From NCBI GenBank assembly GCA_016176745.1, contig JACOWO010000052.1, forward strand, positions 1 to 11,531: 11,531 nucleotides of DNA. The letters run 5' to 3'. Within the stretch, counting starts at the first letter, position 1; the number at the start of each line of letters is the position of its first letter. The notes under the pieces are model-generated. The model made no database searches. It saw nothing but the letters and a program-made list of their open reading frames with translations, and was not told the DNA's origin. This stretch comes from Nitrosopumilales archaeon. GTDB lineage: Archaea > Thermoproteota > Nitrososphaeria > Nitrososphaerales > Nitrosopumilaceae. Positions 164-11,531 of the stretch are shown here, piece by piece. Made by a program: the position numbers and the translations under genes.

Positions 164-176
164 CAGTTTAAGTATT
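164..176 (+). promoter_or_regulatory. Putative TATA box for the structured RNA at 196-330
   Basis: The sequence TTTAAGTATT lies at 167-176. The middle of its TATA-like core is about 26 nt before base 196, where the closing helix of the RNA candidate begins. The spacing is normal for archaeal TBP-dependent promoters. The match is by eye and the sequence is only moderately TATA-like. Confidence 0.45.
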
Positions 177-195
177 ATTTTGACGTATATTAACA

Positions 196-330
196 GACGA
201 GGAAACTTGGAATGTTGCCATTTCACAAAACGTGGAATGGTGCCAAAGTTCTAAGGAACGCTTTGGACTACCATGCCATGGCGTTCTACGCCCGATCCCT
301 GCATGTTTGGGTGGTACCAGTTCCTTGTCC
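196..330 (+). ncRNA. Candidate structured non-coding RNA, family unknown
   Basis: This segment has no convincing reading frame but folds by eye into a closed, branched structure. GACGAGGAA (196-204) pairs with TTCCTTGTC (321-329) over nine base pairs including one G-U; a short inner helix follows (C206, T208-G210 with 317-320). Arm 2 is CCATTTCAC (218-226) against GTGGAATGG (232-240) with a 5-nt AAAAC loop. Arm 3 is CCAAAG-TTC (243-251) against GAA (256-258) and CTTTGG (261-266). Arm 4 is TACCA (269-273) against TGGTA (312-316), and encloses GGCGT-TCT-ACGCC (280-292). Several pairs are G-U only when read on the plus strand (199/326, 223/235, 217/241, 216/242), so the plus strand is the likely transcript. 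By my count it is about half G+C, while the flanks are very A/T-rich. I could not match it to RNase P RNA, SRP RNA, tmRNA or a known riboswitch. Confidence 0.6.
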
Positions 331-348
331 CGTTATTATTAAAATTCC

Positions 349-366
349 TGTCATCAAACGTTGACA
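349..366. repeat. Small inverted repeat in the A/T-rich flank
   Basis: TGTCA (349-353) and TGACA (362-366) are separated by 8 nt, about 20 nt after the structured RNA. It could be part of its 3' end or a protein site. The stem is only five base pairs and may be chance. The remainder of 331-440 is A/T-rich and I see nothing else in it. Confidence 0.2.
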
Positions 367-425
367 AATCAAGGCCAAAAAATATCGATCAATAAATTAT
401 GAACGAATAGAAGATATCATAGTTT

Positions 426-3485: not shown

Positions 3486-4313
3486 ATGTTAAAGCGCGCA
3501 CTAGAAAGCGTGCTTTCAGAAAAGGAAAGTGCAGAGATTTTTTCTGCATTTGATCAAATTGGCGACATCATAATAGTCAGGATACCTGACTTGCTGCTTG
3601 GCAAAAAAGAAATTATCGGAAAAACACTGCTTGAGCAAATAAAAAACGCAAATACTGTTTTTTACCAGTCCTCACCTGTTGAAGGCGACTTTAGGATAAG
3701 AGATTTAGAGTTTCTTGCAGGCGAGAACAAGACGCAAACTGAGTACAAGGAGTTTGGTTGTAGATTTTTAGTTGATGTAGAAAAGGTGTTTTTTTCTCCA
3801 CGGCTTTCAACTGAGAGAAACAGGATTGCCGATTTGGTCAAAGATGGCGAGACTGTAATCAACATGTTTGGCGGCATTGGAATGTTTTCAATAATGGCTG
3901 CAAAAAAGAAGAAATGCACAGTTTACAACATTGACATTAATCCAGATGCTGCCAAATTATGTGAAAAAAATATTTCATTAAACAAGCTTGCAGGAAGTAT
4001 AATTTCACTGCATGGTGATGCCACACAAATAATCAATGAAAAACTGAAAGGAAAAGGCGACAGGATTTTGATGCTCCTTCCTGAAAGATCAGATGAGTTT
4101 TTAGATTCTGCAATATCTGCTGCTAAAAAAAACGGAATAATTCACTACTATTCACATATCCATGCAGACAAAAAGACTCTAGCCCCCAAGTTATCAGAAA
4201 AACATTTTCTTGAGATTACGCCAGTCAAATCAGAAATACTATACTCTAGAATGGTTAGAGCAGTAGGTCCTAGATACTACCAAACTGTAGTTGATGCAAG
4301 AATATCAAAATAA
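3486..4313 (+). CDS. Trm5/Taw-family tRNA methyltransferase-fold enzyme
   Basis: 275 residues from ATG at 3486. A TTG at 3477 overlapping the ABCE1 stop would add three; I prefer the ATG, with AGGAA about ten bases upstream. Numbered from the TTG, the order is the Trm5-type core FSPRLSTERNRI (106-117), SAM-binding MFGGIGMFSI (130-139), acidic DINP (153-156), N165-x-LNK, GDA (180-182), and a C-terminal RAVGPRYYQTVVDARI. Trm5 makes m1G37 in tRNA; related archaeal Taw2/Taw22 enzymes act in wyosine synthesis at the same base. The motif that reads NLP in Trm5 is here MLLPERS (199-205), so the Asn is Leu. That makes the exact reaction uncertain: Trm5-like methylation or a Taw2-like aminocarboxypropyl transfer. 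It is translationally linked to ABCE1, a second translation-related gene. Confidence 0.8.
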   Translation: MLKRALESVLSEKESAEIFSAFDQIGDIIIVRIPDLLLGKKEIIGKTLLEQIKNANTVFYQSSPVEGDFRIRDLEFLAGENKTQTEYKEFGCRFLVDVEKVFFSPRLSTERNRIADLVKDGETVINMFGGIGMFSIMAAKKKKCTVYNIDINPDAAKLCEKNISLNKLAGSIISLHGDATQIINEKLKGKGDRILMLLPERSDEFLDSAISAAKKNGIIHYYSHIHADKKTLAPKLSEKHFLEITPVKSEILYSRMVRAVGPRYYQTVVDARISK

Positions 4314-8559: not shown

Positions 8560-8624
8560 GGGCAGCTCAGACAAATGCCTTCACATCATTTTTCAGATAT
8601 AACTCTGATTCTTCATTGCGGCCA
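8560..8624 (-). ncRNA. Probable C/D-box sRNA (2'-O-methylation guide)
   Basis: On the minus strand the order is: C box ATGAAGA (8616-8610), 13-nt guide (8609-8597), D' box CTGA (8596-8593), 3-nt spacer, C' box ATGATGT (8589-8583), 12-nt guide (8582-8571), D box CTGA (8570-8567). The ends GGCCGC (8623-8618) and GCTGCC (8566-8561) pair with one mismatch as the terminal stem. This compact symmetry, with about 12-nt guides and a short D'-C' spacer, is typical of archaeal C/D sRNAs that guide fibrillarin to rRNA or tRNA. C and C' each have one mismatch to RTGATGA. A TATA box (8646-8653) lies 26 nt upstream of 8624, and a T-run occurs at 8546-8542 downstream. I could not assign the targets by eye. 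Confidence 0.7.
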
Positions 8625-8654: not shown

Positions 8655-8664
8655 TAATGTAGAG

Positions 8665-8738
8665 TGGGCCCGAAGGGCTTCGATCCCTTGGCTCACCGAT
8701 TATGAGTCGGTTACTCTACCAAGCTGAGTTACGGGCCC
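8665..8738 (-). tRNA. tRNA with anticodon CAT (elongator Met or Ile2)
   Basis: 74 nt, no intron, no encoded CCA. Acceptor GGGCCCG pairs with CGGGCCC and the discriminator is A. The D arm is ACTC/GAGT. The anticodon stem ACCGA/TCGGT holds loop CTCATAA, giving CAT (bases 8704-8702). The T stem is AAGGG/CCCTT. The stem lacks the three G-C pairs of initiator tRNA and position 1-72 is G-C, so it is not the initiator. The G-rich acceptor also occurs in archaeal tRNA-Ile, so this could be tRNA-Ile2, in which C34 becomes agmatidine. The T loop reads ATCGAAG, with A at position 54 instead of the usual T. A TATA box (8764-8770) lies 26 nt upstream of the predicted transcript start. Confidence 0.93.
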
Positions 8739-9495: not shown

Positions 9496-9587
9496 GCTCC
9501 TGTGGTGTAGACCGGTCAAGCATACCGCCCTTTCAAGGCGGTGATCCCGGGTTCAAATTCTCAGCGATGAAAATCCCGGCGGGAGCA
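9496..9587 (+). tRNA. tRNA-Glu (TTC) with a T-loop intron
   Basis: Acceptor GCTCCTG pairs with CGGGAGC (9580-9586), discriminator A9587, and no CCA is encoded. The anticodon stem CCGCC/GGCGG encloses CTTTCAA, giving TTC (9532-9534). The T stem CCGGG (9547-9551) and CCCGG (9575-9579) are 23 nt apart instead of 7. Removing 9558-9573 (16 nt) restores loop TTCAAAT and a 76-nt tRNA. The junctions fold as a full bulge-helix-bulge: T stem; 3-nt bulge AAT (9572-9574); central helix TTCA (9552-9555) with TGAA (9568-9571); 3-nt bulge AAT (9556-9558); short inner helix TC/GA. Cutting after the second base of each bulge gives exactly this intron, between positions 59 and 60. Archaeal splicing endonuclease is expected to remove it. 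Confidence 0.93.
9558..9573 (+). other. 16-nt non-canonical tRNA intron (BHB type)
   Basis: The sequence TTCTCAGCGATGAAAA interrupts the T loop of tRNA-Glu between positions 59 and 60. Both splice bulges read AAT and would be cut as AA^T. The intron contains the ATG at 9567 from which the longest reading frame of the downstream gene begins; that ATG is therefore unlikely to be a real start. Confidence 0.85.
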
Positions 9588-10487: not shown

Positions 10488-11531
10488 CTGTAAGGCTTGG
10501 AACTGCAGTTTCAACAAACTGTATTATTGGATCAGGATACACTCCTATTCCAACAATAAATATTATTGAAAATATCATTACTGCAACTACAGATGCAGGT
10601 TCCTTGACTCTTTTTGCTGTCTCGCCTTCAAAGTACATCTTGCGGATAATCCAACCATAGTAAGCTAGCGACAGTGCACTGTTTAGAACACCGGCTATTG
10701 CAAGCCATGGAGCCCATGGCGCAATAGGTCCTGCATCAAGTGCAGCTCCAAACAAAATCAGCTTGCTCCAAAATCCGTTTAGTGGAGGGACACCAGCTAG
10801 TGCCAAAAGTGATATCACAAGTCCAAGTGATGTTATTGGCATTGACCTGCCAAGTCCCTTTATCTTATCAAGGTGGCTTGATGCCAGAGTTGTGATGATT
10901 CCTGCTACTGCAATGAATGCTGCGCCCTTCATTACTGCGTGATTTAGGATATGAAATAGCGAGCCCTGAATGCCAATTGTAGTGTATGGCGCAATTGCAA
11001 GGCCAATTAGGATGTATCCTGCATGGCCAATGCTTGAATATGCAAGAACTCGTGCCAAGTTCTTTTGCATGATAGCAGCTATGTTTCCAACAGTCATAGT
11101 CATTACAGCAATTACCCCAAGTGCAAAGGTCCAGTCAAGTGATAATGCAATTGAGCCCATCACAATTACTCGCAGTGCTGCTGCAAAGCCTGCCTTTTTT
11201 GTACCAGCAGCCAATAGTGCACTAATTGTTGGTGGTGCACCCTCGTATGTGTCAGGAAGCCACATGTGAAACGGCACAAGGCCCATCTTGAATCCAAATC
11301 CTGCAACAAACATTCCAATTGCAAGTAGTGCAAGTGGCAACATTTCAGAATCAATTGTTGCAAATGTCTGGATTACATCGCCAATGTTTGTAGATCCTGT
11401 CAGGCCATATGCAATTGATATTCCATAAATGATTATTGCAGATGAGAGTGCACCAAACAAAAAGTACTTGAGTGCAGCCTCATTTGATGACGGATCCTTT
11501 TTCATAAATCCTACAAGGACATATGTCGGGA
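10477..11531 (-). CDS. nuoN: NADH-quinone oxidoreductase (complex I) subunit N, C-terminal part
   Basis: The frame is open from the right edge to the stop at 10477 and reads PTYVLVGFMKKDPSSNEAALKYFLFGA at the edge, which is internal NuoN sequence. The Met at 11505 is therefore not the start and the 5' part lies outside the window. Multiple hydrophobic helices follow. Key family features are KYFLFGA, GFGFKMGLVPFHMWLPDTYEGAPP with the essential Lys and the TM8-like segment, RVLAYSSIGHAGYILIGL, HILNHAVMKGAAFIAVAGI with a mid-membrane Lys, and PPLNGFWSKL. NuoN is one of the three antiporter-like proton-pumping subunits of complex I in the cell membrane. In Thaumarchaeota the complex lacks the NADH module and is thought to work with other electron carriers. 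nuoN is usually last in the nuo cluster, so the rest of complex I is expected just beyond the edge. Confidence 0.94.
   Translation of the reverse strand, partial: PTYVLVGFMKKDPSSNEAALKYFLFGALSSAIIIYGISIAYGLTGSTNIGDVIQTFATIDSEMLPLALLAIGMFVAGFGFKMGLVPFHMWLPDTYEGAPPTISALLAAGTKKAGFAAALRVIVMGSIALSLDWTFALGVIAVMTMTVGNIAAIMQKNLARVLAYSSIGHAGYILIGLAIAPYTTIGIQGSLFHILNHAVMKGAAFIAVAGIITTLASSHLDKIKGLGRSMPITSLGLVISLLALAGVPPLNGFWSKLILFGAALDAGPIAPWAPWLAIAGVLNSALSLAYYGWIIRKMYFEGETAKRVKEPASVVAVMIFSIIFIVGIGVYPDPIIQFVETAVPSLTVTP

Follow-up and report, generated by a model that had tools for sequence, protein, structure and literature searches.

A putative structured RNA with its own promoter and relatives across a family of ammonia-oxidizing archaea

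In a draft genome of a Nitrosopumilales archaeon (1.12 Mb, 74% complete), we identified a segment that very probably encodes a structured RNA. The segment lies on the plus strand at positions 196-329 of the window, by which we mean the whole stretch of 11,531 nucleotides that we analyzed; the window is an entire contig (G000:C218). The RNA of ~134 nt appears to be non-coding and to belong to a new, lineage-specific family whose side arms vary between lineages. We are nearly certain that this is a real family of structured RNAs. More specifically, we propose, with a probability of roughly 0.6, that it is a free-standing and co-regulated RNA that acts in trans, is sealed by its closing helix (P1), is bound by protein, and meets its partners through its side arms.

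In the sea, few cells outnumber the ammonia-oxidizing archaea of this group, which carry several TFB proteins. A conserved RNA that seems to have its own promoter is a handle on both RNA-based control and promoter specificity in these archaea. The novelty is at the level of the RNA family, as none of the known ones fits; in how it acts, the RNA may turn out to be an ordinary small regulator.

The element is in a 344-nt gap between the gene for an M17 aminopeptidase, whose stop codon is at 124-126, and a convergent, cysteine-rich ORF on the minus strand (471-824). (A longer relative of the aminopeptidase, from locus L008, is a Peptidase_M17 protein in Pfam.) An initial annotation of this DNA described the element as about half G+C in an A/T-rich gap, and the G+C content is indeed 0.50 within the element and just 0.30 (126-195) and 0.26 (330-470) in the flanks. 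The same annotation saw no same-strand gene within 570 bases, which agrees with our finding that the nearest plausible one downstream, a regulator-type gene (HxlR in Pfam), starts at 908, or 578 nt past the RNA. A 107-amino-acid plus-strand frame at 541-864 lies opposite the ORF at 471-824, and we took it to be spurious.

The plus strand of 196-329 has a minimum free energy of -55.1 kcal/mol (z = -5.35), and none of 1,000 dinucleotide shuffles folded as low. For the minus strand, z was -1.0 and 164 of 1,000 shuffles were as low; 200 shuffles gave the same trend between strands. Given the weak signal on the minus strand, we rejected a minus-strand RNA at this location. When we folded 1,140 segments of 134 nt across the window (20-nt steps, both strands), the best value was -47.4, at 10781; two segments that overlap the element ranked second (at 201) and fourth (at 181). 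The best structure for 196-329 is a four-way junction formed by helices P1 to P4. The features of the gene are as follows.

167-187, plus strand: family promoter, with the TATA box TTTAAGTAT at 167-175 and the conserved TATTTTGACGTA to 187
196-329, plus strand: class I RNA gene, with a predicted transcript of ~134 nt (fold z of -5.35; models R1, R2, and R3 find homologs)
196-204, plus strand: P1 5' arm, GACGAGGA(A), pairs with 321-329
206-213, plus strand: P2 5' arm, pairs with 248-255 (95% of cells paired and a double change C-G/U-A, in five relatives)
218-240, plus strand: P2b apical hairpin, 218-226/232-240 (pair probability 1.0)
248-255, plus strand: P2 3' arm, partner of 206-213 (same comparison of five relatives)
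253-269, plus strand: conserved core AAGGAACGCTTTGGACT (family core RGGAAnGCCUUGG, from 19 divergent members)
256-286, plus strand: P3 hairpin, 256-262/280-286 and 264-266/276-278 (91.5% of cells paired)
289-313, plus strand: P4 hairpin, 289-295/307-313 (window type only; 80% of cells paired)
314-320, plus strand: joining strand GTACCAG, 5' of the P1 3' arm (GTACCA is identical in the window, L013, L014, and L016, and not in L017)
321-329, plus strand: P1 3' arm, (U)UCCUUGUC, pairs with 196-204
330-392, plus strand: 3' flank, near-identical in an alignment of the window, L008, and L009 (three genomes of the same genus)

Within the core, G255, G256, A257, and A258 are nearly invariant (at least 90%) across 19 divergent members, and C261 is invariant. 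The GGAAn of the RGGAAnGCC core can pair with a downstream n'UUCC, and this pairing is P3. In five relatives, P3 shows double changes from C-G to U-A and from U-G to A-U, and two pairs of P4 show double changes; P4 has no counterpart in the class I reference of alignment A11 (see below), as judged from the minimum-energy fold predicted for that sequence. The 3' flank may be a transcript tail, a terminator, or an antisense promoter. Beyond 392, the identity among the three genomes of the same genus falls sharply.

The closing helix that was originally described (196-204 with 321-329) is recovered with pair probabilities of 0.68-1.0. The arm 218-226/232-240 also stands in the window (probability 1.0), but it varies in relatives, where 72% of the cells of its first five pairs are paired (five relatives). 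The rest of the inner fold was mostly wrong and is replaced by P2, P3, and P4: the pair probability was 0.0 for the arm 243-251/256-266, for the pairing 269-273/312-316, and for the inner hairpin at 280-292. Because the folding program is blind to pseudoknots, 269-273/312-316 could still form as a tertiary contact.

A DNA search over 101 genomes matched five of them. Four of these matches are true (the window's own genome, G001, G002, and G014); the fifth, L011 in G025, is a chance match within a protein gene. We then searched 250 genomes of the window's family with models R1, R2, and R3. R1, whose consensus structure did not include P2 (a partial row is the probable cause), matched 5 of the 250 genomes at E ≤ 0.1 and added G050 and a second copy in G014. 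R2 matched 16 of the 250 at E ≤ 1, and several of these matches appear to be due to chance: L197, L198, L199, L204, L206, L207, and the second match in L200 have no family promoter by eye. We are unsure if L209 is a member.

Four homologs were folded on both strands, the same strand being that of the window's RNA. (Values for relatives differ slightly in range between computations.) Fold z-scores on the same strand and the other strand were -4.79 and -1.96 in G002 (L008/L013), -6.18 and -1.09 for the first copy in G014 (L010/L014), -2.14 and -0.67 in G050 (L016), and -5.61 and -3.79 for the second copy in G014 (L017); given the last value, the contrast between strands is not clean everywhere. 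The match in L016 is on the minus strand of the contig-oriented locus, which agrees with the plus strand in the window.

An exact pattern of the two P1 arms, GACGAGGA-N86-115-TCCTCGTC, matched 16 of the 250 genomes, while the reversed control matched none. On reading, the matches in 14 of the 16 genomes are members; L211 and L225 have no promoter and were rejected. A pattern of the promoter and the 5' arm matched 18 places in 17 genomes (18 places for the reversed control, too), among them four new places (L230, L239, L240, and L242), all of which have a pairing P1 3' arm even though the pattern did not demand one.

R3 was built from 19 members and includes the promoter. At E ≤ 1, it matched 112 of the 250 family genomes (69 of the 131 good genomes and 11 of the 22 genera). 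There were 34 places of at least 50 bits, in 30 genomes, and 19 of these 34 had been used to build the model. G002, G014, G040, and G112 each contain two such places, which are paralogs; those we compared within genomes, in G014 and G002, have diverged. With sensitive filters, R3 matched 9 of 25 family genomes, so detection is patchy; among 15 genomes from the order's other families it matched one, and this match (E = 0.93) is probably due to chance. These models are short and have limited reach, and with them we found no convincing members outside the family-level group. A loose pattern, TCTRAGGANNGCNTTGGA, selected at least 118 contig stretches and 43 viral stretches. R1 found nothing in the 43 viral loci and 10 of the contig loci; R3, over 100 more of the contig loci, found one member, L186 (VHBM01000007.1, from Thaumarchaeota archaeon isolate K_Offshore_80m_m1_039), and this contig is from the same genus as the window's genome.

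We examined 60 places found by R3, which we chose by hand among the matches listed. Many of them belong to a second class. In class I, which includes the window, the closing helix is GACGAGGA/UCCUCGUC. Class II has the closing helix AACGAGAA/UUCUCGUU, and an arm tip of UGCGUMGUA (found in 44 of the 60 places); its P3 arm can be, for example, GGAAAAC..GUUUUCC, and it carries UCAUGUUA. One genome, G046, has two R3 matches, one of each class.

P1 is kept as a helix while its sequence changes. In an alignment of 19 members (A8), 151 of the 152 cells of its eight pairs are standard pairs, and the exception is an A-C in L195. U-A replaces G-C in L200; the first pair varies in step in class II (A-U, G-U, or G-C); and L327 has AACAAGAAA/UUUCUUGUU. 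All 60 of the R3 places have at least 7 pairs in P1; when shuffled, an average of 14.25 of the 60 do. The arms are canonical in 57 of the 60, and non-canonical in L290, L312, and L330. A GGAA-type stem, which is outside the structure of R3, has at least 5 pairs in 57 of the 60 (11.6 if shuffled) and at least 7 pairs in 50 of the 60 (3.2 if shuffled).

To quantify the conservation of pairing, we used three alignments: five window-type sequences (A6), 39 class II rows (A10), and 20 class I rows (A11). In A6, 86.2% of cells are paired, compared to 83.0 ± 1.0% for shuffled sequences (one shuffle of 500 equaled it) and 36-52% with slid partners. In A11, the corresponding values are 93.3%, 91.9%, and 36-52%. 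In A10 they are 87.4%, 83.7%, and 40-48%, and these paired percentages are flattered because A10 omits 21 of the 60 places (nine of the other class or doubtful, and twelve that are short, variant, or more divergent, of which eight look class-II-like). Pairs that changed on both sides numbered 8 in A6 (4.3 in shuffles, 4 of 500 as high; 1-3 with slid partners), 13 of 37 in A10 (8.5 in shuffles, 0 of 500; 4-10 with slid partners), and 8 in A11 (3.1 in shuffles, 2 of 500; 1-7 with slid partners), where the shuffles do not preserve relatedness, so these counts are not probabilities. The covariation score was 0.200 in A10 (at most 0.089 with slid partners) and 0.172 in A11 (at most 0.079); across the three alignments it was 0.17-0.28, compared to at most 0.14 with slid partners. 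The number of further pair types did not exceed that of the shuffles in A6 (261 of 500) or A10 (250 of 500), or that of the control in A11 (78 of 500). Overall, the closing helix and the corrected inner helices show the two-sided, pairing-preserving changes that the initial annotation had suggested looking for.

The UGCGU of the tip and a UCAUGUU are invariant across the 39 rows of A10. A class II pattern occurred in 13 of the 29 family genomes scanned and in 1 of 108 other genomes; its reversed control occurred in 2 of the 137. In the genus g12, 11 of the 13 genomes examined have the pattern. In contrast, the interiors of class I differ strongly between genera. The interiors of the two classes align poorly, so the argument for their common descent rests on the promoter, P1, and the GGAA stem.

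The upstream TATA-like box that was originally reported is present at 167-175, and it is part of a longer signal with the consensus TTAARTATnATTTTnACGTA. The window's copy is at 168-187, at a spacing of 20 from P1, and it scores 29.5 bits at 168 with a 20-column family matrix, whose rows include the window. Among the 19 class I members, 17 have a spacing of 20-21 nt between the end of TTAARTAn and P1. The exceptions are L195, with a spacing of 25, and L193 (the first copy in G014), which lacks a good match even though it is a clear homolog. The spacing was also 20-21 in 59 of the 60 R3 places, although this recurrence, like that of P1, is partly built in because R3 contains both; our script missed the other place, L312, because its P1 varies. 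Homologs with a matching promoter occur in other genera, in agreement with the proposal that the RNA has its own. By established archaeal promoter geometry, the spacing of the TATA box predicts a transcription start no more than a few bases from 196.

The promoter pattern by itself was not enriched (18 places, and also 18 for the reversed control), so the argument for the promoter comes from the spacer that members share and from the RNA that follows. We also scanned 127 kb, on both strands, with the matrix (built from 57 of 58 rows, with consensus TTAAATATCATTTTGACGTA). All 11 sites of at least 13 bits were before RNA genes, including one before a doubtful member (L295 3939, 13.0 bits); the best other site had 12.2 bits, and the RNA gene in L296 (the L193 place) was missed. 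These genes are themselves among the rows of the matrix, and the 127 kb consist of stretches picked for their RNA genes; what the scan shows is therefore that the signal is uncommon among neighboring genes, and it does not speak for the genome as a whole. On reading, the family promoter is absent before the window's 5S rRNA and tRNA-Met genes. Conservation beyond the TATA box, in a signal that these genes lack, suggests special control. The doubtful member, at 3935-4095 (plus strand) of L295, combines its weak promoter (13.0 bits) with an imperfect closing helix; it is possibly a third paralog in G014.

The element had been left unassigned, and we found no match to it in Rfam 15 up to E = 5, nor did the members at 30 further loci match any family at E up to 0.5 or 1 (two weak matches at these loci fall outside the member regions). 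The Rfam families of C/D and H/ACA guides likewise had no match in the element or in member regions. There is no ARAGORN or Rfam call of a tRNA or tmRNA on the element, and none of these genes were called in 23 member loci. K-turns, C/D and H/ACA boxes, and switch pairings were inspected by eye only and led nowhere.

Some well-known RNAs resemble the element. 5S rRNA (RF00001) is ~120 nt and has a closing helix with arms at a junction, but the element does not match RF00001, and the true 5S rRNA gene is at 1484-1603 on the minus strand (76.1 bits in Rfam; the sole rRNA matched within the window). Archaeal RNase P RNA (RF00373) has a GAGGAA-like start, as does the element, and is a stable, free-standing RNA; but it is twice the length of the element, which matches no Rfam family, and the single RF00373 match in this genome is elsewhere (G000:C72:2200-2480). 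Regulators of the Y RNA or 6S RNA type have a sequence-conserved closing stem, a variable interior, and their own promoter, all of which the element shares. It differs in having no Rfam match or known binding protein (we compared it to these RNAs through Rfam only). The nearest published analog that we found is Tan1 (Thalassoarchaea ncRNA 1), an abundant structured ncRNA of marine planktonic archaea that was seen by RNA-seq and is described as having no known function (PMC5069720). As described there, Tan1 is set apart by its length of 229 nt and its hosts, which are group II Euryarchaeota; the five homologs that are named are all from Thalassoarchaea (PMC5069720). In our searches of open-licence papers, we found no structured RNA family described for ammonia-oxidizing archaea of this group.

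In the mechanism that we favor, TBP and TFB, possibly joined by a dedicated factor that recognizes ATTTTnACGTA, would start transcription at the first base of P1 or right beside it. By pairing the two ends of the RNA, P1 would then seal them off from exonucleases, and a protein would probably bind it. The RNA would act in trans, with the loops of its side arms meeting protein and/or mRNA partners, and its own promoter would make it a co-regulated small regulatory RNA.

The strongest alternative, to which we give perhaps one chance in four, is that the RNA is always on and is not a regulator: it could be the housekeeping structural RNA of a lineage-specific ribonucleoprotein, as a scaffold or a guide-like component. 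The high frequency of class II in g12 and the invariant UGCGU and UCAUGUU in 39 rows (with 21 of 60 places left out) would fit such a role. The strong differences among class I interiors argue against it, and so does the promoter, whose conservation beyond the TATA box distinguishes it, on reading, from those of 5S rRNA and tRNA-Met.

The arrangement of neighboring genes bears on whether the RNA is free-standing, as we and the initial annotation propose, or a cis-acting element (a riboswitch, attenuator, or antisense RNA) for a neighboring gene. In the same genus, L008 (from G002) has the same neighbors as the window and is the only locus where synteny with the aminopeptidase gene is retained; the contig from G001 begins within the RNA. 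In other genera, the neighbors listed differ (G151 and G281 in class II; G023, G014, G050, and G040 in class I), so the RNA looks free-standing. It recurs with its promoter in these different neighborhoods, and it lacks the fixed position upstream of a same-strand gene that would be expected of a riboswitch. A cis-acting role draws some support from G046 and G058, where the class II RNA is ~60 nt upstream of a same-strand gene for a Zn-ribbon-like protein, and from an acidic ORF in G046 that converges on the class I RNA and overlaps it with its 3' end. But the Zn-ribbon-like gene is absent downstream of class II in G151 and G281, and in the window the next plausible same-strand gene is the distant HxlR gene. 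Overall, we consider a cis-acting element to be quite unlikely.

Some of the neighbors recur. The Zn-ribbon-like genes (L293 4715-5254 and L299 5347-5892) have no Pfam match. Small genes with Lrp/AsnC ligand-binding domains adjoin the RNA in two genera (L301 4589-4840 and L302 4211-4483). By eye, a similar protein of ~129 amino acids is encoded near the RNA in three genera (L296 5138-5527, L195 1742-2131, and L212 2068-2457); the L296 copy has no Pfam match, and the recurrence may mean no more than that these genomes often encode such proteins. A viral scan for one neighbor protein found no relative.

Contrary to the original statement that the segment has no reading frame, a 50-amino-acid frame with an ATG start covers 212-364. 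A similar peptide, TRKLG..GAKVLRNALDYHA.AFYA, is found in the window, L194, L193, and L195, and the frame is open through the RNA in the window and L195, as would be expected of a short protein gene or a dual-function RNA. However, it is stopped in L194, from the same genus; on reading, the stop is directly after FYA in both L194 and L193, and the sequences share no start codon. Also, across the four sequences, the variable columns on codon positions 1, 2, and 3 number 12, 14, and 17 of 32. Given the stop in L194 and the spread of the variable columns, the frame looks accidental. Among those listed, the longest frames of A11 and A10 members differ, so no open frame is common to the members, and we rejected a coding gene as very improbable.

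It is hardly credible that the RNA is a non-autonomous mobile element with P1 as its terminal inverted repeat: such a repeat is present and the locations differ between genera, but the draft genome contains a single strong match, the element itself (the strongest other match is 16 nt, E = 0.16), which led us to reject a recent element; the compared paralogs in G014 and G002 have diverged; the conserved promoter is outside the repeat; L008 has the same neighbors; and we looked for target duplications by eye only.

Returning to a trans-acting RNA, the pairing of GGAAn with n'UUCC may be more than an ordinary stem. In the window it forms a neighboring stem, while in L208 and L239 it is, by our reading, possibly a loop-to-loop contact, so that it might be a kissing or switching module. 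Speculatively, and with odds well against it, these RNAs could form a superfamily that is private to ammonia-oxidizing archaea, with at least two classes, several paralogs in some genomes, a dedicated transcription signal, a constant P1 scaffold, and interchangeable arms that meet as kissing or switching helices via a GGAA/UUCC contact that can itself be exchanged. If true, this would be a modular RNA regulon without a counterpart in known families.

Two other places in the window might encode RNAs. At 8565-8620 on the minus strand, adjoining tRNA-Met (8664-8738, minus strand), there are sub-threshold matches to several archaeal C/D box sRNA families in Rfam (sR17 at 25.3 bits, with a cut-off of 36), so this is perhaps a C/D box guide RNA. 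At 9501-9566 on the plus strand, immediately 5' of the ORF at 9567, there is a tRNA-like segment (25.1 bits, with a cut-off of 29) that is not called by ARAGORN; it is perhaps an intron-bearing or decayed tRNA.
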